Positions 6,190 through 21,232 of a stretch of 64,000 bases of DNA are shown here, piece after piece. The stretch is from Sulfurimonadaceae bacterium. Its GTDB lineage: Bacteria > Campylobacterota > Campylobacteria > Campylobacterales > Sulfurimonadaceae. Location of the stretch: positions 1 to 64,000 of the forward strand of contig JADGDM010000006.1 in the NCBI GenBank assembly GCA_016744905.1, read 5' to 3'. Below the pieces are notes generated by a model that saw only the letters and a list, made by a program, of their open reading frames with translations, did no database searches and had not been told where the DNA came from. Within the stretch, counting starts at the first letter, position 1. Each line of letters begins with the position of its first letter. The translations under genes were made by a program, and so were the position numbers.

Positions 6190-8061
6190 TTAAGAAGAAG
6201 GAAACCTAAGTGTAAAACATGCACCATTTCTTTCATTATGCACAGAGATACTTCCTGAAAGCTTCTGCTCCATAATCAACTGTGACATATAAAGTCCTAT
6301 ACCTGTTCCGCCTATTTCGGCCTTAGTACTGATATGGGGCTCAAATATCTGAGAGAGGATACTTTGATCTACACCACCCCCATTGTCACAAAAGAGTAGG
6401 ACATTTTCACCATTTTCTTGTGATAAGGAGATATGGATACTTCTGTCTGAATTTTTACTTTCACACAGGGCATCTTTAGCGTTGTTGAGCAGATTTAAAA
6501 GTACTTGAGCAAATTCACTTTCTGATTTTTGTGCAAAAAATATCCCCTCTTTGGCATCTAACTGCACATCTATATGGTGATAATCTAAACCCGCAGAGAC
6601 AATATTAATCGCTTGACGCAGTGCAAAAACAACATCAAAACGTTTATCATTTTCGTTCGGTGTAAAAAAGAGTCTGAAATCATCTATCGTTTGCGACATA
6701 TATTTAATCATTTGATTGCCATGTGTCATCTTTTTTTCTAAATAGACCGCATCAAGTTCACCAAATGCCTGAGCAGACTCAAGGTTCATAAAGATGCCTC
6801 CGAGCTGTGCAAGAGGCTGTCTCCATTGATGGGCGATATGTCCTATCATCTCTCCCATTGAAGCCAATCTTGATTGTTGCATCATCAGATATTCTTGCTC
6901 TTGGCGCAGACGTATTTCCTCTCTTATTTCCTCTTGAAGTTGCTGTTTCATCACCTCATGTTCTGTCACATCTTTGGCGATAAGCTTAAGATAACGGCTA
7001 TTAATATTTTTTGAAAGTGTTCCCGAAAATTCATAATTTCGAGCATCCACCAGTGCAGAAAAATTCTCAATCTGTCCACTTTTTTCAAGTGCGCTATACA
7101 GACCTATCCAGGTCTCTCCAAAAAGTGCTTGAGGAGACTGCTCTAACAAACCCTCTCCAAAATTCTCTTTGGCTTTACGGTTCATCCAATGTATTACTTG
7201 ATGATTAGGCACATCAAATATCTCAATAATCGCCTCAGGAAGCAGATCCATAATCTCCTTGGCGTGACGCAGTTTAATCTCAAGCATCCGAGCAACATTG
7301 CCCTTGATATGCTTAAATATATCTCTATTGGTTAACAACGCACGCATTGCTCCATCAGTATCGCAAACCAAAACACGTCTGATATTACTATGACGCATCA
7401 GCTCAATCACCTCGGTTATCGCCTCTTGACTTGAAACAGAAGAGACAGGTGAAGACATCAAAGTCTGCACCTCTTGTGCAAGATCAAGACCATGATAACC
7501 CGCAGAGAGAATATCTTTTTCTGTCACAATTCCTATGGCTTTAAGCGCACTATCCGTGACAATAACAGAGCCTATTTTGGCCTGATGCATCAATTCACGC
7601 ACGTCATTTAAGGTCTTCCCCTGCTCTACTGAAATCACACGTGCATCATGCTCTAGCAGATCCGCTACTTTCAAGTCAACCTTATACACATCCTCTTCTA
7701 AAAAACCAAAAAGATCCTCTTGTAAAACCATTCCACAATACAGACCCGCATCATCAATCAACACCAAGCGGCGGATATTATTGCTCACCACCAAATCAAA
7801 GGCGGATTCAACTGGTCTACTCTGATTGGCTGTAATCACTGGATGTATTGATAAAGGCATTACCGGTTGTGAAAAGTCCGTCAACTCTGCAAAGTGAGCA
7901 AGAACCAAACCCTCTGTGACGATACCTACAGGACGTCCCTCTTCAAGCAGCACCACGGAACCATTTTTGTTTTCCAACATAGAAGCCATGGCCTCCCCCA
8001 GTGTGGCACTCGAAGCGATCGAAAATCCAAGCGTATGCGCAATAGAAGATAAATCCCTCAC
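6190..8061 (-). CDS. Soluble histidine kinase with four CBS motifs and PAS
   Basis: This 623-residue protein has no membrane segment. Residues about 5-255 hold four CBS repeats (two Bateman modules; for example MSSPVSSVSSQEAITEV then NIRRVLV). A PAS-like domain follows at about 265-370. A short coiled coil leads to the H box AHQWRQPL, with the phosphorylated His near residue 409. The ATPase domain has LLNLLNNAKDAL, DNGGGVD and GTGIGLYMSQL. CBS domains usually bind adenosine nucleotides, so an energy or nucleotide signal is plausible. The GTG start overlaps the TGA of the response regulator gene (GTGA), which marks translational coupling. Confidence 0.88.
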   Translation of the reverse strand: MRDLSSIAHTLGFSIASSATLGEAMASMLENKNGSVVLLEEGRPVGIVTEGLVLAHFAELTDFSQPVMPLSIHPVITANQSRPVESAFDLVVSNNIRRLVLIDDAGLYCGMVLQEDLFGFLEEDVYKVDLKVADLLEHDARVISVEQGKTLNDVRELMHQAKIGSVIVTDSALKAIGIVTEKDILSAGYHGLDLAQEVQTLMSSPVSSVSSQEAITEVIELMRHSNIRRVLVCDTDGAMRALLTNRDIFKHIKGNVARMLEIKLRHAKEIMDLLPEAIIEIFDVPNHQVIHWMNRKAKENFGEGLLEQSPQALFGETWIGLYSALEKSGQIENFSALVDARNYEFSGTLSKNINSRYLKLIAKDVTEHEVMKQQLQEEIREEIRLRQEQEYLMMQQSRLASMGEMIGHIAHQWRQPLAQLGGIFMNLESAQAFGELDAVYLEKKMTHGNQMIKYMSQTIDDFRLFFTPNENDKRFDVVFALRQAINIVSAGLDYHHIDVQLDAKEGIFFAQKSESEFAQVLLNLLNNAKDALCESKNSDRSIHISLSQENGENVLLFCDNGGGVDQSILSQIFEPHISTKAEIGGTGIGLYMSQLIMEQKLSGSISVHNERNGACFTLRFPSS

Positions 8062-8771
8062 CGCTTCTCCTTCTCATAAAGTTTGTAACCAATGGCAGCA
8101 ATATTTTTTATCAATTCACTGTGGCTCTTTTTACGTAAGTTGCGTATCTGAGCGCGCAGGGCATCTTTGCTCATCACACTCTCTGGCCAGACTTCATACT
8201 GCAAGGCTTCATAAGAGAGTGTTTTTCCAACATTTGCGATAAAGAACTCCAAAAGCTGCATCTCTTTACGTCTTAAGTGCACTATCTCATCTTCATAAAT
8301 CAGCTCTTTACGTACCATCTCATAACAAAAACCCGCCCCTAAATCAATCTCTGTCTCTACCAATAAGGTTCGATCTTTGTACTCATCAGCTGCTTTACTC
8401 AGCGCCTCCATTAACTCGGTACTGGTCACAGGCTTAACAAGGTAGCGCGTCAGCTCCAACTCAACAGCGGTTAATAAAAACTCTTTGTCTGTATAGGCCG
8501 TTGAGATTATAATACGGGTGTCATGATCACTTAAGCGGAGTTCTCTGGCAAAGTCTATACCACTTTTACCCGGTAGATTGATGTCAAGTAATATAATATC
8601 AGGATTGATTTTTTCATAAAGTTCTTGACCTATTTCTGCGCTTTGAGCAAGATGAAGGTTAGAGGTATAGCGTCTTAAAAATTCAGCCAAATATCCTTGT
8701 ATCTCAGCATCATCTTCTACGTATAATAGGGTTAGATTTTTAATTTTTGAAGCGAAGAGATGGTGATCCAT
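8058..8771 (-). CDS. OmpR-like response regulator
   Basis: This 237-residue protein has a receiver domain (residues 12-128) with the phosphoacceptor in LLDINLPGKSG (Asp63), the conserved Thr91 and Lys113 (YLVKPV). A winged-helix DNA-binding domain follows (about residues 140-235, ending in IAAIGYKLYEK). It is the cognate regulator of the CBS kinase encoded just downstream. The leader can form a hairpin TATTTAC/GTAAATA close to the AAAGG ribosome site, which may be an attenuator between this gene and the DUF234 gene upstream. Confidence 0.9.
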   Translation of the reverse strand: MDHHLFASKIKNLTLLYVEDDAEIQGYLAEFLRRYTSNLHLAQSAEIGQELYEKINPDIILLDINLPGKSGIDFARELRLSDHDTRIIISTAYTDKEFLLTAVELELTRYLVKPVTSTELMEALSKAADEYKDRTLLVETEIDLGAGFCYEMVRKELIYEDEIVHLRRKEMQLLEFFIANVGKTLSYEALQYEVWPESVMSKDALRAQIRNLRKKSHSELIKNIAAIGYKLYEKEKR

Positions 8772-12119: not shown

Positions 12120-12162
12120 TATATCAATATATCTTGATATAGTAATTTTAATACGTTACAAT
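12120..12162 (+). promoter_or_regulatory. ArsR operator and promoter
   Basis: The inverted repeat TATATCAA (12120-12127) - 6 nt - TTGATATA (12134-12141) contains the TCAA-N6-TTGA core typical of ArsR-family operators. Its right half supplies a -35-like TTGATA (12134-12139), followed after 17 nt by TACAAT (12157-12162). Binding of ArsR would therefore block RNA polymerase directly. This controls the gene cluster starting at 12191 and implies negative autoregulation relieved by metalloid binding. Confidence 0.75.
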
Positions 12163-12190
12163 GTTTACATAAATAATTTCAGGAGTTTAC

Positions 12191-12514
12191 GTGGAGACAT
12201 TTTTAAAATCTATCTCAGCACTTAATGATGAGACCCGTCTTTTGATACTTCGATTTATCGATAAAAATGGAGAAGTCTGTGTTTGTGACTTACAAAGCTC
12301 TTTAGAGATGATACAGTCACGTCTTTCTCGTCACTTAAAGATATTAAAAGAGGCTGGCTTTTTAAAAGTTGAACGTAAAGGGACGTGGGCATACTACTCG
12401 GTTCGCTCTCCTCTTGATAGATTTCGTAGTGAAGCCTTTGAGGAGATCCGTTATCTTGAAATGGATATCCCAAAACTCAATAAAATATCGCATACAGGAG
12501 AGTGTACCCTATGA
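12191..12514 (+). CDS. arsR: ArsR-family metalloid-responsive repressor
   Basis: This 107-residue winged-helix protein has the arsenic-sensing motif EVCVCDL (Cys pair near residues 31-33) and a recognition helix SRLSRHLKILKEAGF. The GTG start is preceded by AGGAG at 6 nt. The gene lies directly behind an ArsR-type operator and heads a cluster with arsC, a permease and thiol-redox proteins, so As(III) or Sb(III) is the likely inducer. Its 3' end overlaps the arsC start (ATGA). Confidence 0.92.
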   Translation: METFLKSISALNDETRLLILRFIDKNGEVCVCDLQSSLEMIQSRLSRHLKILKEAGFLKVERKGTWAYYSVRSPLDRFRSEAFEEIRYLEMDIPKLNKISHTGECTL

Positions 12515-12921
12515 GTCAAAAGAAAAATGTACTAATTTTATGTACGGGTAACAGCTGTCGCTCCATCATGGCCGAGGCTATTTTAAATACCTACCTTGGT
12601 GAATGTGTCAGCGCGCAGAGTTCAGGCGTAAGTGCCAGTGGAAAAGTAAATCCTAACGCACAAGCACTTCTAGCGTCTAAAGGTGAGTGGAGAGAAGTTT
12701 ATCATTCTAAGGTTATCGAAACAGTTTTAGACAGGGAGTATGATCTCATCATTACCGTTTGTGACAACGCAAAAGAGACCTGTCCTCTCTTTCCCAACGC
12801 CGTAAAAACCATCCATGTAGGCTTTGATGATCCTAGTGGAAAAGCAGTTGAAGAGTATGAGACAACGTACAACTTAATCAAAAAAGAGCTGCTTCCTGTC
12901 GTCAAATCGGAGCTCTGTTAA
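12511..12921 (+). CDS. arsC: Arsenate reductase, thioredoxin-coupled LMW-phosphatase type
   Basis: This 136-residue protein has the P-loop CTGNSCRS near the N-terminus and the resolving cysteines in CDNAKETCP (about residues 80-90). These are the three catalytic cysteines of the thioredoxin-dependent ArsC family, which reduces arsenate to arsenite in the cytoplasm. I chose ATG 12511 (AGGAG 10 nt upstream, overlapping the arsR stop) over the GTG at 12502. Thioredoxin-like proteins encoded downstream could be electron donors. Confidence 0.92.
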   Translation: MSQKKNVLILCTGNSCRSIMAEAILNTYLGECVSAQSSGVSASGKVNPNAQALLASKGEWREVYHSKVIETVLDREYDLIITVCDNAKETCPLFPNAVKTIHVGFDDPSGKAVEEYETTYNLIKKELLPVVKSELC

Positions 12922-12922
12922 G

Positions 12923-13867
12923 ATGTGGAAAGAGGCGGTTGACTATCTCACCTATAATCTTCTCAGTCTTGAAGGTCACGCAGGTGAAGCACTAAACTTT
13001 TTTATCTATGACACATTCAAAATATGGTTTCTACTCGTCACCATTATCTTTGTTGTCTCTTATTTGCGCACCCACTTTAACACCGAGTATGTACGCGCTC
13101 ATCTGCAAGGGAAGTCACAGCTTTATGGCAATGTCTTGGCTGCTGTTTTTGGAATCATTACCCCGTTTTGTAGCTGTAGTGCCATTCCTCTGTTTTTAGG
13201 ATTTATCCAAGCGCGTATTCCTGTGGGGGTGACTTTTTCGTTTCTCATCAGTTCGCCTATGAATAACGAAATCGCCATTGCTTTGCTCTTTGGTCTCTTT
13301 GGCTGGAAGATTACGGCGCTCTACATTGGCTTTGGTCTTCTCGTCGCTATTCTTGGTGGTTTTATCATCGGTCGTTTGGGTATGGAAAAATATATCTTAA
13401 TGGATGTGAAACCAATGGAAGGTGAGTTAGACGAAGTGAAAATCACCCTGACTCAGCGTGAGCGTTTACAAGAAGCCTATGATTACACCAAAGAGATATT
13501 TCAAAAGATCTATCTTTATGTTTTGCTTGGTGTGGGTATTGGCGCACTGATTCATGGCTATATCCCAGCAGATTTTATAGCGCGCTACGCTGGTGCAGAC
13601 AACATCTTTGCTGTACCACTGGCGGTGTTGATGGGTATCCCAATGTATTCAAATGCAGCAGGTGTCATGCCTTTGGTTGAAGTGCTTACTTCTAAGGGGA
13701 TGTTACTTGGAACCGCACTGAGTTTTATGATGGCAGTTACCGCGCTGAGCCTGCCAGAAGCCATGATACTCAAAAAGATTTTACACATAAAACTGATTGC
13801 TACATTTTTTGGGATTGTAGGTCTTGGAATTATTGGTATCGGTTATCTATTTAATTTTATTTTATAA
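12923..13867 (+). CDS. DUF318/ArsP-type permease
   Basis: This 314-residue protein has about eight hydrophobic helices in two related halves. The signature TPFCSCSAIPLFLGF (about residues 78-92), with a Cys pair, is followed by ISSPMNNEIAIALL; the second half has IPMYSNAAGVMPLVEVL. The family includes ArsP-like exporters of trivalent organoarsenicals and uncharacterised permeases. No ArsB or Acr3 pump is present in this operon, so this is the likely metalloid exporter; the substrate is inferred from context. It starts 2 nt after the arsC stop. Confidence 0.85.
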   Translation: MWKEAVDYLTYNLLSLEGHAGEALNFFIYDTFKIWFLLVTIIFVVSYLRTHFNTEYVRAHLQGKSQLYGNVLAAVFGIITPFCSCSAIPLFLGFIQARIPVGVTFSFLISSPMNNEIAIALLFGLFGWKITALYIGFGLLVAILGGFIIGRLGMEKYILMDVKPMEGELDEVKITLTQRERLQEAYDYTKEIFQKIYLYVLLGVGIGALIHGYIPADFIARYAGADNIFAVPLAVLMGIPMYSNAAGVMPLVEVLTSKGMLLGTALSFMMAVTALSLPEAMILKKILHIKLIATFFGIVGLGIIGIGYLFNFIL

Positions 13868-13875
13868 GGAAAAAT

Positions 13876-14133
13876 ATGTTTCAAATTAACAATACTGCGC
13901 AGGGCGTGAACGCTGTTTTAACAGGTTTTAAAAGTCAAGAGTTAGAGAAAAAGATACAAGATTGCCAAGACGGTAATTGTAGTTGTGAATGTGACCCAGA
14001 AATCATGTCAAAAATTGAGGACATCTCATTTAGCAGTAGTGCCGATAGTGTCACCATTAATGTCAAGGGCAATATCGATGCTCAAACCTTAGCCCCTCTT
14101 ATGCAAGAGTGTCTAATAGATAATAAGGAATAG
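13876..14133 (+). CDS. Cys-rich hypothetical protein in ars operon
   Basis: This 85-residue cytoplasmic protein is not recognised. It carries a dense cysteine cluster CQDGNCSCECD (about residues 29-39) and another Cys near the C-terminus (LMQECL). The second half looks alpha/beta (SVTINVKGNIDAQTLAPL). The cluster could bind As(III) or another thiophilic metal, or act in redox transfer with the neighbouring permease and thioredoxin-fold protein. AAGGA precedes the ATG. Confidence 0.75.
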   Translation: MFQINNTAQGVNAVLTGFKSQELEKKIQDCQDGNCSCECDPEIMSKIEDISFSSSADSVTINVKGNIDAQTLAPLMQECLIDNKE

Positions 14134-14136
14134 AAA

Positions 14137-14370
14137 ATGAAGATAGAGATATTAGGCACAGGCTGTAAAAAATGTAAAGACCTTGAGATAGTTGCCAAAG
14201 AAGCGGTCGCAAAGATTGGTGGTTTTCACAGTGTCGAAAAAGTTGAAGATATACAAAAAATCATGGACTATGGTGTGATGAGTACACCAGGTCTGGTTAT
14301 CGATGGAGAAGTTAAAAGCACAGGTAAACTGTTGAGTGTAGATGAAGTCATCGCACTGATGAAGGGATAA
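14137..14370 (+). CDS. Small thioredoxin-fold protein (TM0996/MTH895 type)
   Basis: This 77-residue protein has the redox motif GCKKCK at residues 9-14 and the cis-Pro region MSTPGLVIDGEVKSTG. It matches the minimal thioredoxin-like family typified by MTH895/TM0996. Such proteins often sit next to DUF318 permeases, as here, and are thought to deliver or reduce a substrate at the cytoplasmic face. It starts 3 nt after the Cys-rich gene. Confidence 0.88.
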   Translation: MKIEILGTGCKKCKDLEIVAKEAVAKIGGFHSVEKVEDIQKIMDYGVMSTPGLVIDGEVKSTGKLLSVDEVIALMKG

Positions 14371-14374
14371 AAAG

Positions 14375-15076
14375 ATGCAAGAGAGCATTTTAGCACTGCT
14401 AGAGTCTCACTCCTACCTCACCTTTTTTGGTGCATTTGGAGCAGGAAGTCTAACTGCAGTTGCACCATGCTCTCTTATCTCTGTGCCTCTTTTAGTGGGC
14501 AGTTCTCTTGCCTTAAACAAAGACTTAGTGGGTAGAAAAAAAGTCTTATATACCTATGCTTTTGCCTCGCTTTTTGCCCTTGGTGTGATGATTAGCTTTT
14601 CTATACTCGGTTATATCGTTGCCAAATTTGGTGGGTTCTTCTCCATCGCTCCTCTTTGGGCATATATAATTGCCAGTATTTTAAGTATCTTCATTGGTCT
14701 TTATGCTTGGGGTGTTTTTGGTGAAATCGACAAATCATTTTTGATGCAAAAGTTGATTCACTACCGACTTTTTGGTGGTTTTCTAATCGGCATCATCTTT
14801 GGACTCGTCAGTACACCTTGCGCCTCTGCACCACTTATCGCCATCATCACCGTGGCCTCAAGTAGTGGATATATTTATGCCTATGCGCTTATACTCACCT
14901 TTGCCCTTGGTCACTCTATTTTACTTTTGGGCGCAGGTGTTTCAGTGGGCTTTGCACAGAGCATAACGTCCAGCGCACTGCTCTCAAAATTTTCAAATAT
15001 ATTAAACCGTCTGTTTGCCTTGATGCTCATTGTCTTTGGGCTCTATTTTGCATACAGCGCATTTTTACAACTTTAG
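14375..15076 (+). CDS. CcdA/DsbD-like thiol-reductant membrane transporter
   Basis: This 233-residue protein has six hydrophobic helices, with the two redox cysteines in VAPCSLIS (about residue 32) and STPCASAP (about residue 150) that define the CcdA/DsbD transmembrane family. It would carry electrons from cytoplasmic thioredoxin across the inner membrane. The gene for a periplasmic thioredoxin-like protein follows 8 nt later and is the natural recipient. Its place in an ArsR-led operon suggests use in metalloid handling rather than general cytochrome c maturation. Confidence 0.88.
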   Translation: MQESILALLESHSYLTFFGAFGAGSLTAVAPCSLISVPLLVGSSLALNKDLVGRKKVLYTYAFASLFALGVMISFSILGYIVAKFGGFFSIAPLWAYIIASILSIFIGLYAWGVFGEIDKSFLMQKLIHYRLFGGFLIGIIFGLVSTPCASAPLIAIITVASSSGYIYAYALILTFALGHSILLLGAGVSVGFAQSITSSALLSKFSNILNRLFALMLIVFGLYFAYSAFLQL

Positions 15077-15084
15077 GGAATATC

Positions 15085-15462
15085 ATGAAAACACTATTTT
15101 TACTACTACTAAGTTTATCACTTTTTGCCAGCGCGCCAACACTTAAAGAGAGTCAGTACACGTATGTTAAAAGCAGTATAGGACAAGGGAAACCTTACTT
15201 TTTAGAAGTTGGAAGTAAGGGGTGTAAAAGCTGTAAGATTATGGGAAAAATGCTTTATAAAGCCACACAAAAATATCCAAAGTATCAGATCCATTTTATC
15301 AATGTCTCTAAAGAGCGAGACGCAGCGCAAGCCCTTAAAATCAGAATGATTCCTACTCAAATTATCTATAATGCAGTCGGCGAAGAGGTCTATCGACACG
15401 TTGGTGTTTTAGGCACACAAGAGCTAGAGACACTTTTAGAACAACACTTTAAAGAAAACTAG
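15085..15462 (+). CDS. Periplasmic thioredoxin-like protein
   Basis: This 125-residue protein has a signal peptide (MKTLFLLLLSLSLFASA) and a thioredoxin fold with active site GCKSCK (about residues 46-51) and the cis-Pro segment MIPTQIIYN. It is probably kept reduced by the CcdA-like protein encoded just upstream. The target could be periplasmic arsenate/arsenite chemistry or oxidised surface proteins; neither is shown by sequence. Confidence 0.87.
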   Translation: MKTLFLLLLSLSLFASAPTLKESQYTYVKSSIGQGKPYFLEVGSKGCKSCKIMGKMLYKATQKYPKYQIHFINVSKERDAAQALKIRMIPTQIIYNAVGEEVYRHVGVLGTQELETLLEQHFKEN

Positions 15463-15471
15463 GAGCGCGCT

Positions 15472-16371
15472 ATGTCTGGACACCATCATCACCATCACGA
15501 AGTCAGTGGAAAAAACCTTTTTATAACTATCATCTTAAATGTTATCATCACTCTCTCACAAGTTGTTGGGGGAATCCTCTCTGGCTCACTTGCTCTTTTA
15601 AGTGATGCTCTTCATAACCTCAGTGATGTTGTTGCCTTGGTTATCGCTTATGTTGCAAACAAATTAGCAAAGCGCACTGGAACACAGGAAAAGACATTTG
15701 GATACAAGCGCGCTGAGATTCTCGCTGCGCTTTTTAACGCTTCAGTCTTGATTTTTATTGCTATTTTTCTTATTTATGAATCTGTACATAAATTCTTTAA
15801 TCCAGAAGCTATAAATTCCATCTGGGTGATTGGACTGGGTCTTTTAAGCATCATTTTAAATGCCGCCAGTGTACTACTTATCAAAGATGATGCACACGGT
15901 AATATGAATATGCGTGCTGCGTATTTACATCTACTAACCGATGTTATGACCTCTGTTGCTGTTGTTTTAGGTGGGGTTTTGATGTACTATTATCAACTCT
16001 TCTGGATTGATCCACTCATCTCTATCTTCATCGCACTGTACCTTATCAAAGCCTCAGTGGGACTTATCAAAGAGTCCAGTGCAGTGTTAATGCAGTTTGC
16101 CCCAGAATCTATCAATGTTGATGAAGTAATTTTATCTATCACATCACTCCCTGAAATAGAGAGTGTACATCATCTGCACCTTTGGCAACTTGATGATCAT
16201 AATATCCATCTTGAAGCCCATTTAGATTTTAAAGAAAATGTAAATTTAGAAGTCTCGACACAGATAAGTAGCGCGCTGGAAAAAATCTTGCATGATACCT
16301 TTGGAATTGAACACAGCACTTTCCAGTGTGAGTATAACAGCACCCATAACAGAGCTGTTATTGCGCATTAG
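15472..16371 (+). CDS. CDF-family cation efflux protein (CzcD/ZitB-like)
   Basis: This 299-residue cation diffusion facilitator has six membrane helices. The metal-site residues are in LLSDALHNLSDV (helix 2) and LLTDVMTSVAVV (helix 5), and a C-terminal cytoplasmic domain holds HHLHLWQLDDHNIHLEAH. The N-terminus is MSGHHHHHHEV, a native six-His metal-binding tail. Zn(II), Co(II) or Cd(II) export is likely. The ribosome site is GGAG, and its spacer to the ATG is a GCGCGC palindrome (15464-15471). It is cotranscribed with the ars genes. Confidence 0.9.
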   Translation: MSGHHHHHHEVSGKNLFITIILNVIITLSQVVGGILSGSLALLSDALHNLSDVVALVIAYVANKLAKRTGTQEKTFGYKRAEILAALFNASVLIFIAIFLIYESVHKFFNPEAINSIWVIGLGLLSIILNAASVLLIKDDAHGNMNMRAAYLHLLTDVMTSVAVVLGGVLMYYYQLFWIDPLISIFIALYLIKASVGLIKESSAVLMQFAPESINVDEVILSITSLPEIESVHHLHLWQLDDHNIHLEAHLDFKENVNLEVSTQISSALEKILHDTFGIEHSTFQCEYNSTHNRAVIAH

Positions 16372-16379
16372 GAGTGGCA

Positions 16380-17141
16380 ATGAATAATAACTTTTATATT
16401 CTCCATTATGAAGCGGGTGCGGAACATACACCTGTACCCACATGGGCCAGCAGTATGGACAATCCCTTTAATCTCCATGTTTCTGCTACAGACAGTATTC
16501 TGCGCACTGAGATAGAGACAGTCCCTGCGTGTTTTCAAGTTTTAGATGTTTTTACGCCTAAAGAGTGCCTAGGTATTATCAACACGGTTAACACCTTAGG
16601 CTTTACTCAAGATGCCTCAGTTTCTTTACCAAGAAACGTCCGTCACAATGAGAACCTTGTATGGATTGCAGATGATGCAACACAGAAAATTATTTGGCAA
16701 CGCGTTGAAGCTTTTATCAAAAAAAGTCCTGATATTTTTCAAGGTCAAACACCCATCGGAATCAACCAACGTTTTCGTTTTTATAAGTATGGAGAGGGTG
16801 ATTTTTTCAAACCGCACACGGATGGAGCTTGGCCGGGAAGTAAGGTTATCAACAAGAAGCTCATCAATGATGCTTGTGATGGTGCGTACTCTCAAATGAC
16901 TTTTCTACTCTTTCTTAATGATGACTTTAAAGGGGGCGCTACGACATTTTATGTCAATAGAAATGATGCCTCTCGTCCAGCCTATACAGAAGAAGAGATG
17001 AAAGAAGTCTCCGTGCGAACACCCCAAGGCGGAGTATTATGTTTTCCTCATGGTACGCACCCCCAACACTGTCTACACAGCTCAAGCAAGATAGACTTAG
17101 GAGTAAAGTACATTATTCGTACCGATGTTTTATTTAAATAA
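16380..17141 (+). CDS. 2-oxoglutarate/Fe(II) oxygenase, prolyl-4-hydroxylase-like
   Basis: This 253-residue protein matches the P4Hc-type 2OG-Fe(II) dioxygenases. The iron ligands are in KPHTDGAWPG (His146, Asp148) and CLHSSSKI (His233), and the 2-oxoglutarate contact is in GVKYIIRTD. It also has FLLFLNDDFKGGATTFY. No signal peptide is seen, so it is probably cytoplasmic; the substrate is unknown (protein prolines, nucleic acid bases or a small molecule). I use ATG 16380 (GGAG 5 nt upstream) rather than GTG 16374. It directly follows the CDF gene and ends the operon. Confidence 0.85.
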   Translation: MNNNFYILHYEAGAEHTPVPTWASSMDNPFNLHVSATDSILRTEIETVPACFQVLDVFTPKECLGIINTVNTLGFTQDASVSLPRNVRHNENLVWIADDATQKIIWQRVEAFIKKSPDIFQGQTPIGINQRFRFYKYGEGDFFKPHTDGAWPGSKVINKKLINDACDGAYSQMTFLLFLNDDFKGGATTFYVNRNDASRPAYTEEEMKEVSVRTPQGGVLCFPHGTHPQHCLHSSSKIDLGVKYIIRTDVLFK

Positions 17142-17160
17142 ACTCAAACACATACAGCGC

Positions 17161-17166
17161 TATAAT
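17161..17166 (+). promoter_or_regulatory. -10 box of the GNAT gene
   Basis: TATAAT overlaps the interval after the oxygenase stop and lies 33 nt before ATG 17200, so the small acetyltransferase has its own promoter. Confidence 0.5.
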
Positions 17167-17199
17167 TTTAAAAATCAAACTAATGAAATGGAATTTAAT

Positions 17200-17478
17200 A
17201 TGGACAACAATTACGAACTTATTCACAATACAGCAGAGAATCAATACGAATACCACATCGAAGGACATAAGGCGCGCTTGGTTTATGAAAATGACAATGG
17301 AGTACTTCATCTCACACATACCTTTGTACCTAAAGAGCTTGGTGGACGTGGAATCGCAGGGGCTTTAGTAAAAGATGTTTTTGCAGATATTGAGAAACAA
17401 GGATTAAAGATGAAGCCAGCGTGTTCTTACATCGTCAACTATGTAGAAAAACATCCAGAATTTGAGAACCTTTTATAG
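17200..17478 (+). CDS. Small GNAT acetyltransferase (YjdJ-like)
   Basis: This 92-residue protein is a minimal GCN5-related acetyltransferase. The acetyl-CoA loop reads ELGGRGIAGALVKDV, followed by ACSYIVNYVEKHPEF. This short type (YjdJ) lacks the first strands of full-size GNATs, and its acceptor is unknown. Longer in-frame starts at 17125 and 17188 overlap the promoter or lack a ribosome site. ATG 17200 has GGA 7 nt upstream. Confidence 0.85.
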   Translation: MDNNYELIHNTAENQYEYHIEGHKARLVYENDNGVLHLTHTFVPKELGGRGIAGALVKDVFADIEKQGLKMKPACSYIVNYVEKHPEFENLL

Positions 17479-19767: not shown

Positions 19768-19793
19768 TAGTCTAGCGCACTCAGCGCTAAGAC
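19768..19793. repeat. Hairpin between convergent flgE and RTX-like gene
   Basis: GTCTAGCGC (19770-19778) and GCGCTAAGAC (19784-19793) form a stem with one bulged A around ACTCA, overlapping the stop codon of the minus-strand gene. It sits between convergent genes where a bidirectional terminator is expected, but a T-run is found only on the 5' side. Termination is therefore only a possibility. Confidence 0.4.
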
Positions 19794-21232
19794 GCATCAA
19801 TCATCAACTCATTTTGAACAATCAACGTTAAATCGCTATTTTGAATCTGTGCATGATAGGTCATATTATTTTCACCCACATCATGATCCATCAATAACCA
19901 ATCATCACTCACCACAAATGTGGCACTCTCTTCACCGATTATCGTTAAGATATTATCTTCATCCGTAATGTCTAAAAGGTCTTGAGAACTCAAGTTTTCA
20001 AGTGTTGCTTCTGCTTTTAAGTAGATGTACTCTAAGTTTGATACGATGGTGTCCAGTGCTGAGAAATCTAAAGAGTCATCAAGCACCAATATATCATCAC
20101 CACTTCCAAAATCTACCTTATCCCAGTTATCACCAAACTGAACCACATCATCACCTTCCCCTGCATCGATATACGTTGCAAAAAGGTTATCTGGTTTTGC
20201 ATCACCAATAATCAGCTTGTCATTACCCTCTTCAAGTTCAGAACTGTCATAACCATCACCAGCATTCAAGAAGTCTGCTCCAGCAGTTCCATCTAAGTCT
20301 TCAGTAAACCATGAACTTTGATCACCTACATTTTCAAAAGTACCCGCTAAAGGATTTACCAAATCAACCGGAACAGACGCTGCGACAGGATCAGGAGTAA
20401 TCAGACTTTCAATCTGGTCTGAGATTGTAGTAGAAAGGAGAACTAAGCCATCTTTTGCAAAACTACCTGTAATTTCGATAGCACTAGAGACACCCCCTTG
20501 AACCGTGTCAATAAGAGAATCCGTATAAGATGCAACACTGTCACTATATTCTTCTAAAAAACTAGAGTCGTTTATAATATCTTCTGCCTCTGAAATGAGG
20601 TCATTAGCCGTTAAAATACCTTGATCATAAGCGCTACCAATATTATTAATACCTTCTAAAACATTGCCGAGATCTTGCTCAACGGCTGCCGTAAAGATAG
20701 CCTTACTCGATGCATCAGAGCCATCAATAGAAAGATCACTCATTAGAGATTCATAATCTACAGTATCAGAAAGGTAAGAGATTAAAACCTCATTAATAGC
20801 ACTTTTATCATCTATATTTGAGTAAGCCTCATATCCTCCGTCTAGTCCTCCGATACTTGTTGCTGTAAAAACTGAATAGAGTTCCATATACGCGCCAAAT
20901 GAGCTGAATAGACCAGCGTCAAGTCCAAAGGCAGTATTCATATATTCCATCTGTTCAATGGCTAAAAGTGTCTCTTCAATACTTTGGTCTTCCGCATTAA
21001 GAACATCTTTCAAAACCAAGCTTTCAAAGTCACAAGTAAAGTCTAAATGCGCATTATTAAGATAGACTGATTTACCATTGTTAAATGCAATCACAGCCAG
21101 TCCATCTGCAGAGAGATGTAAGGCTTCGTTAAGATATACAACATCACCACTGCTCAGTTCAACACTTTGCTCTCCACGAAGTGTAGTCACACTCCCTTTT
21201 TCTATTATGATCTTTGCTATATGTCCAGACAT
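19787..21232 (-). CDS. Small LapA/RTX-like secreted protein
   Basis: This 481-residue, very acidic protein has no Sec signal. The N-terminus (residues 1-65, KIIIEKGSVTTLRGEQSVEL and SSGDVVYLNEALHLSADG) resembles the retention module of LapA-type adhesins. The middle is helical. Residues about 310-400 carry degenerate RTX calcium-binding repeats (GTAGADFLNAGDGYD, DAGEGDDVVQFGD, FGSGDDILVL), as in type I secretion substrates. It is far shorter than normal LapA adhesins and lacks long repeat arrays. No transporter genes are adjacent. It may be a surface or matrix protein; the ABC exporter must be encoded elsewhere. Confidence 0.65.
   Translation of the reverse strand: MSGHIAKIIIEKGSVTTLRGEQSVELSSGDVVYLNEALHLSADGLAVIAFNNGKSVYLNNAHLDFTCDFESLVLKDVLNAEDQSIEETLLAIEQMEYMNTAFGLDAGLFSSFGAYMELYSVFTATSIGGLDGGYEAYSNIDDKSAINEVLISYLSDTVDYESLMSDLSIDGSDASSKAIFTAAVEQDLGNVLEGINNIGSAYDQGILTANDLISEAEDIINDSSFLEEYSDSVASYTDSLIDTVQGGVSSAIEITGSFAKDGLVLLSTTISDQIESLITPDPVAASVPVDLVNPLAGTFENVGDQSSWFTEDLDGTAGADFLNAGDGYDSSELEEGNDKLIIGDAKPDNLFATYIDAGEGDDVVQFGDNWDKVDFGSGDDILVLDDSLDFSALDTIVSNLEYIYLKAEATLENLSSQDLLDITDEDNILTIIGEESATFVVSDDWLLMDHDVGENNMTYHAQIQNSDLTLIVQNELMIDAS

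Follow-up and report, generated by a model that had tools for sequence, protein, structure and literature searches.

Arsenite is the product of the reductase ArsC and the substrate exported by ArsB, and, once formed in the cytoplasm, it has to be brought to the exporter without harm to thiols. The known arsenite carrier, ArsD, is the partner of the ATPase ArsA, and many ars operons are without ArsA. A small MTH895-type thioredoxin is reportedly found in an arsenical operon as well, namely in the ArsEFG system of Shewanella that is said to have been described by Chen in 2019. The subject of this report is an operon at positions 12,120 to 17,141 of a 64,000-nucleotide stretch of DNA, hereafter referred to as the window, from a member of the Sulfurimonadaceae (GenBank assembly GCA_016744905.1, contig JADGDM010000006.1, positions 1 to 64,000 of the forward strand). 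The assignment of this operon to arsenic is well supported. Taken as a whole, it is probably best explained as an operon for arsenic detoxification in a bacterium of the Campylobacterota akin to Sulfurimonas and Sulfuricurvum, with a small cysteine-rich protein as putative arsenite carrier and with an optional redox cassette.

Several described systems share parts with this locus. ArsP is the third commonest ars transporter and the only transporter in its operon in 20 of 49 cases, and organoarsenical efflux is a published trait of its family (PMC4435449). In Campylobacter jejuni and Campylobacter coli, which belong to the same phylum, the ars operon is arsP-arsR-arsC-acr3 (PMC3774448). It has ArsP, ArsR, and ArsC together in one operon, as does the window, but ArsE, CcdA, a thioredoxin, or a Cys-rich protein are not mentioned in the pertinent passages of that paper, and the genome harboring the window gave no match to Acr3. 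Arsenic operons encoding CcdA, a thioredoxin, and redox-active disulfide protein 2 were reported in 2010 (PMC2963123). These same three redox proteins occur with arsC in seven of the eight instances, and the authors proposed a supply of electrons to ArsC, with flow across the membrane judged to be less likely. Whereas the passages of that report on these operons mention no Cys-rich protein, the window has one, and its redox genes lie with ArsP, the ccdA-trxP pair being an optional cassette. The first-pass annotation had described the operon as unlike textbook ars operons. That surprise rests on a known operon type because the DUF318 permease belongs to the ArsP exporter family (PMC4435449) and operons with CcdA and thioredoxin have been in print since 2010. 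What is new here is the Cys-rich family, together with the modular way in which the redox genes are combined, the operon type itself being partly known.

Gene content and control of the operon

The control elements and the genes of principal concern are as follows.

12121..12140, no strand: ArsR operator, perfect palindrome ATATCAA-N6-TTGATAT (sequence search and conservation)
12134..12162, + strand: promoter-like site TTGATA-17-TACAAT with its -35 box inside the operator (10 of 12 consensus matches)
12191..12514, + strand: arsR, ArsR/SmtB repressor with CVC sensor motif and a C-terminal Cys (HTH_5, 50.2 bits; NF033788, 83.3 bits)
12511..12921, + strand: arsC, low-molecular-weight phosphatase type, thioredoxin-coupled (LMWPc, 67.8 bits); its ATG overlaps the arsR stop codon
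12923..13867, + strand: arsP, DUF318/ArsP_1 permease with TPF-CSC (PF03773, 244.5 bits, cut-off 32.3)
13876..14133, + strand: Cys-rich protein of 85 residues with CxxGxCxCxC and Cys 79, from an unnamed family (no family match)
14137..14370, + strand: arsE, MTH895/ArsE thioredoxin-like protein with CKKC (TIGR00412, 97.8 bits, cut-off 62)
14375..15076, + strand: ccdA, CcdA/DsbD transmembrane domain protein (PF02683, DsbD_TM, 38.9 bits, cut-off 27.1)
15085..15462, + strand: trxP, secreted-looking thioredoxin with CKSC and an N-terminal hydrophobic signal seen by eye (PF00085, 29.9 bits)

On the same strand these genes are followed, in order, by one encoding a CDF pump and by one resembling a 2-oxoglutarate/Fe(II) (2OG) oxygenase gene. 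The spacing from arsR to the 2OG-like gene is 1-9 nucleotides or an overlap, and a gap of 58 nucleotides then precedes a small GNAT gene, the tenth of ten adjacent genes on the + strand (12191-17478). Gene set and order are those given in the first-pass annotation, with all named genes found, families scoring over curated cut-offs, and the 2OG assignment a near miss. The operator is the sole perfect match to its palindrome in the window and, indeed, in the whole 3.0-Mb genome. In 33 of 34 distinct relative loci it precedes arsR with two or fewer mismatches, the exception being L112 (the 36 rows included L079 and L104 twice each). Promoter-like sites overall are no more frequent than in shuffled sequence, and four terminator-like sites were found against a shuffle mean of 4.2, which is no excess. 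Given the tight spacing and the unique, conserved palindrome, the earlier description of a single ArsR-type operator driving a single operon is upheld to the extent that sequence alone can do so.

The first three proteins have the residues expected of their families. ArsR scores above the NF033788 cut-off of 55 bits, and it has both the CxC sensor and the palindromic operator. Among its aligned relatives Cys 30 and Cys 32 are kept in 34/34 and Cys 105 in 33/34. In ArsC, Cys 11, Cys 16, Cys 84, and Cys 91 are kept in all 38 aligned relatives and include the P-loop cysteine and two further redox cysteines (Cys 11, Cys 84, and Cys 91). Cys 83 and Cys 85 of the permease are kept in 37/37, and its TPFCSC sequence is the "cluster 2" ArsP motif, a C(S/T)C preceded by tPF, set out in PMC4435449. 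Efflux of trivalent organoarsenicals is predicted for the window permease.

The statement that no ArsB or Acr3 is present holds for the operon. In the genome there was likewise no match to Acr3, but the statement does not hold for ArsB, which is encoded once elsewhere in the genome (470 bits) and divergently beside the operon in 27 of 42 relative loci. The missing ArsB is a feature of the operon only since the other copy lies on another contig. A search of the genome with one ArsM query gave no match, a weak negative as no control was run. A second ArsP_1-type permease of 363 residues is encoded in the genome (G000, contig 100, 32267-33127; L072, 7088-8179). It has a Cys-rich loop, an LPVCSC motif, and a Cys-rich C-terminus (CSDDSCCSS), and its gene is divergent from an ArsR-like gene with the sensor motif LCVCEIC. 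By eye it is more like the SO_0444 Cu/Zn permeases.

Two sets of loci were compared, with genes labeled by profiles built from the window genes and their close matches rather than by curated models. The first set, obtained with the Cys-rich profile, comprises 42 loci in named genomes, all titled as kin of the Campylobacterota and including Sulfurimonas, Sulfuricurvum, Sulfurovum, and "Helicobacteraceae" and "Campylobacterales" metagenome-assembled genomes. At least four genomes supply two of the 42 loci, and counts from the series L034-L053 and L074-L115, which share contigs, were not summed. On the same strand and within 6 kb, arsR is present in 35 of these loci, arsC in 37, arsP in 37, arsE in 38, ccdA in 23, trxP in 22, and a rhodanese gene in 14. 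The second set started from a search for the permease across 298 genomes of the phylum; a match with at least 53 percent identity was obtained in 70. Its 40 loci come from 40 of the 61 genomes among these that lack a Cys-rich match; they were picked by hand, and the Cys-rich gene is thus absent from them by selection. They carry arsE in 39 cases, arsC in 36, arsB in 24, and ccdA in 12. In the first set, arsB is close in 28 of the 42 loci.

The cysteine-rich protein family

The small open reading frame between arsP and arsE is a real gene, given that its five cysteines are invariant in 32/32 aligned relatives. Comparison with Pfam and NCBIfam revealed no family, only a few rows at chance level, and there was no match among PDB sequences. 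Searches of the open-access PMC literature revealed no description of the family. Fifty-five members were examined, namely 43 of the 47 non-window rows of the first search and 12 new ones, with the weak G067, G039, G041, and G020 left out. Within 3 kb of 46 of them lies arsR, arsC, arsP, or arsB. Two types can be distinguished: five cysteines are kept in type 1, which mostly goes with ArsP, and three in type 2, which goes with ArsB or ArsC. Alignments from the Campylobacterota to the Bacillota reveal Cys 30, Gly 33, Cys 35, and Cys 37 to be invariant across the whole family.

Seven genomes (L057, L068, and L121-L125) carry in-frame fusions in which the type 2 domain follows ArsC. Two of these fusions, L068 and L121, have a [2Fe-2S] BFD-like segment between ArsC and the Cys-rich domain, which in L068 matches Fer2_BFD with 31.2 bits and in L121 was recognized by eye from the same Cys pattern. 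Six further loci (L054-L056 and L060-L062) display a two-gene cys2-arsB arrangement without arsC. Among 72,556 plasmid records the sole match is that of Alicyclobacillus (Bacillota), downstream of ArsR-ArsB-ArsC-ArsC-TrxB. This copy keeps CxxGxCxC and directly follows trxB, in a stretch without an annotated thioredoxin gene.

As(III) is common to ArsC, ArsB, and ArsP, and a three-cysteine protein that accompanies all three and is found fused to ArsC may on these grounds be a holder or carrier of As(III). Our tentative proposal, which we rate somewhat short of an even chance, is that the family constitutes a hitherto unrecognized class of arsenite carriers, unrelated to ArsD, that would take As(III) straight from ArsC to ArsB or ArsP and limit free arsenite. 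The ArsC-[2Fe-2S]-carrier fusion would then be the physical form of such a direct hand-off in some genomes. The proposed job is like that of ArsD, with three cysteines and delivery of As(III) to efflux machinery, but there is no similarity in sequence: alignment with one ArsD by hhalign gave a probability of 1.4 percent, and 21 family members gave no ArsD match in Pfam at E ≤ 1.

The predicted structure of the window protein (predicted local distance difference test, pLDDT, 80; predicted template modeling score, pTM, 0.64) contains two beta-beta-alpha units, and the Cys loop follows the first long helix. A selenoprotein was considered and rejected. The in-frame TGA of six relatives, four of which were on the right strand for a reading of the frame, is the natural C-terminal stop just after ECLL, where the alignments end too.

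Other arrangements were observed in the course of these comparisons. In L068 (1297-2187) and L121 (6632-7516), ArsC, the BFD [2Fe-2S] segment, and CxxGxCxC form one protein, possibly an all-in-one arsenate-to-export protein, and arsB follows it. In L055 and its relatives (L054, L056, and L060-L062) arsR is on the strand opposite cys2-arsB, and in L055 a gene for a BrkB/YihY-family membrane protein overlaps arsR. A third branch, with CNSGGxCSCEC, is found in L063 (7563-8356) and L043 (10713-11506), where it overlaps the start of a gene for a CopZ N-terminal-type metal-binding protein; the L063 copy has no ars gene within 3 kb. On the Sulfuricella plasmid pSCD (L117, 4151-5415) a GDCCVxC (seleno)protein gene directly precedes an ArsP-type permease, and an arsenite methyltransferase is encoded downstream. 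It is another small Cys protein in the position of the Cys-rich gene, in another phylum.

The redox genes and their neighbors

On paper the parts of a thiol relay are all chemically competent. The CxxC of ArsE (Cys 10 and Cys 13) is kept in 38/38 aligned relatives, and both the membrane cysteines of CcdA (Cys 32 and Cys 149) and Cys 47 and Cys 50 of trxP are kept in 23/23. By analogy with the CcdA family, electrons might pass from ArsE to CcdA and on to the secreted-looking thioredoxin.

The comparison of loci shows ArsP and ArsE to be the core pair and ccdA-trxP an optional cassette. In the first set, arsE is present at 37/37 arsP loci, and trxP at 22/23 ccdA loci, the exception being truncated by a contig end. 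The cassette varies in position: it follows arsE at some loci and separates arsC from arsP at others, as an optional, movable unit of two genes would. The ArsP-ArsE pair lacks ccdA at 14 of the 37 named ArsP loci and lacks a same-strand ccdA at 28 of the 40 further loci, two of which carry a ccdA-trxP pair on the other strand. For this reason the redox relay is an optional add-on. The first-pass annotation had envisaged a pathway that moves electrons outward while a thiophilic compound is exported. An arsenic operon with such an exporter and a possible trans-membrane relay is borne out by the invariant relay cysteines and by the pairing of ccdA with trxP; a close tie between efflux and outward electron flow is not supported, given the loci without ccdA. 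As to operon conservation, suggested there as a check, the ArsP-ArsE core recurs (37/37 and 39/40) and ccdA is paired with trxP; ccdA itself is optional, and the 2OG-like gene is absent from the 42 loci. Among plasmids, the five best permease relatives of 972 records (four Pseudomonadota, one Chloroflexota) all lie near a small thioredoxin gene, often with a rhodanese or CDF gene. An annotated ArsR or other ars gene is found in four of the five stretches and none in that of Citrobacter.

The remaining genes on the strand are these.

15472..16371, + strand: CDF cation efflux protein, ZitB-like (TIGR01297, 261.7 bits)
16380..17141, + strand: 2OG-Fe(II)-oxygenase-like gene (PF13640, 26.5 bits, cut-off 27, a near miss)
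17200..17478, + strand: small GNAT (Acetyltransf_CG, Pfam), 58 nucleotides downstream of the 2OG-like gene

With same-strand copies within 6 kb in 8 of 42 relative loci, the CDF gene recurs as a metal-efflux companion. The 2OG assignment is the weakest family call of the operon. None of the 42 loci has the 2OG-like gene or the GNAT gene on the same strand at a distance of up to 6 kb, and strong matches to the 2OG-like gene occur in only 2 of 199 other genomes. Both were rejected as pathway members, contrary to the place first given to the oxygenase. The 2OG-like gene is probably a lineage-specific passenger, and the membership of the GNAT gene in the operon is doubtful.

Elsewhere in the window, a - strand gene (8061-8771) next to that of a CBS/HATPase protein has weak matches to the candidate defence models PDC-M60B and SduA. 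An acidic protein of 481 residues is encoded beside flgE (19787-21232, - strand) and is without a Pfam match at E 1e-5.

Alternative explanations and a proposed pathway

Rather than carrying arsenite, the Cys-rich protein could serve, as a redox or Fe-S partner, to reduce ArsC in the place of thioredoxin. The in-frame fusions, two of them with the intervening [2Fe-2S] segment, favor such a role, as does the Alicyclobacillus plasmid with its copy directly after trxB and no annotated thioredoxin gene. At the six cys2-arsB loci, however, there is no arsC and hence no reductase to serve, the window operon already contains the thioredoxin ArsE, and the motif is CxxGxCxC rather than CxxC. We consider this role unlikely, albeit worthy of attention. 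Less likely still is a passive, metallothionein-like arsenic buffer without specific hand-off. The protein is indeed small, Cys-rich, and optional, and some copies are distant from ars genes, but only three cysteines are invariant family-wide, a folded body is predicted (pLDDT 80), and a specific partner is suggested by the fusion to ArsC.

The CcdA-like protein has its own alternative, namely an exporter of aromatic arsenicals of the ArsG type that would work with ArsE, as in ArsEFG, and not as an electron conduit. The NCBIfam ArsG model aligns to residues 14-228, the small thioredoxin is of the MTH895/ArsE family, and ArsG is listed among the organic arsenical transporters in PMC9144182. By the NCBIfam models the membrane protein of ArsEFG is related to DsbD_TM, but the window protein scores far below the ArsG cut-off (NF040495, 20.6 bits versus 200) and was rejected as a member, and ArsP is the probable exporter here. 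Moreover, both CcdA-typical membrane cysteines are invariant (23/23), and a secreted-looking CxxC thioredoxin, which would be superfluous for an exporter, accompanies ccdA in 22/23 and 10/12 loci. An ArsG-type function is, in our judgment, improbable. It is very improbable indeed that the operon serves general thiol or divalent-metal (Zn/Cu) efflux, with arsenic secondary. A CDF pump is present, and the permease also matches the SO_0444 Cu/Zn (NF033936, 97.2 bits) and SaoE (NF040736, 107.9 bits) models. These scores are far under the respective cut-offs of 300 and 325, and both assignments were rejected; arsC is found in 37/42 and 36/40 loci and arsB close by in 28/42 and 24/40; and the 363-residue permease, with its Cys-rich loop and LPVCSC, is the more SO_0444-like of the two by eye.

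Certain observations weigh against the arsenic pathway with carrier and relay as proposed. ArsC falls below the TIGR02691 equivalog cut-off (80.7 bits versus 174.3) and is a relative of this pI258-type group, not a member. For nine of the 55 Cys-rich members there is no ars gene within 3 kb. A close ArsP without the Cys-rich gene is the commonest situation: just 9 of the 70 genomes that encode a close ArsP carry it, and the gene is therefore not needed for ArsP. The Cys-rich model gave no functional hint either in Foldseek, where the best E value was 0.018 and none was below 0.001, or in VIA-align, where the best Z was 6.9 and the rows were mostly part of gyrase A; the fold comparison is not interpretable and shows neither kinship nor a new fold. 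Two ccdA loci of the second set lack trxP. Finally, ArsE occurs where ccdA does not, and electron flow from ArsE to CcdA is for this reason only one possibility.

On the basis of the gene content, the operator, the conserved cysteines, the linkage, and the fusions, we infer the following biochemical steps for the arsenic pathway. ArsR would occupy the palindrome that covers the -35 box and be released when As(III) or Sb(III) meets its CxC motif. Arsenate would be reduced by ArsC, with electrons from ArsE going to ArsC, keeping the ArsP site reduced, or both. The Cys-rich protein may then bind, by its CxxGxCxC motif, the As(III) that ArsC produces and pass it to the exporter, ArsP in this operon and ArsB in relatives. 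Trivalent inorganic or organic arsenicals would leave by way of the membrane CSC motif of ArsP. CcdA and the secreted-looking thioredoxin might connect the cytoplasmic thiol pool, probably through ArsE, to the periplasm, such that exported arsenic or periplasmic thiols are kept reduced. The CDF protein would act as a metal-efflux companion, and the 2OG-like gene as a passenger.

If the proposed role of the Cys-rich family is correct, there would be a second carrier, unrelated to ArsD and in some genomes fused to ArsC, by which reduction and export are physically linked. The grouping of the genes, ArsP with ArsE and CcdA with the thioredoxin, opens to direct test the question that has stood since 2010, namely for what reason CcdA is present in some ars operons.

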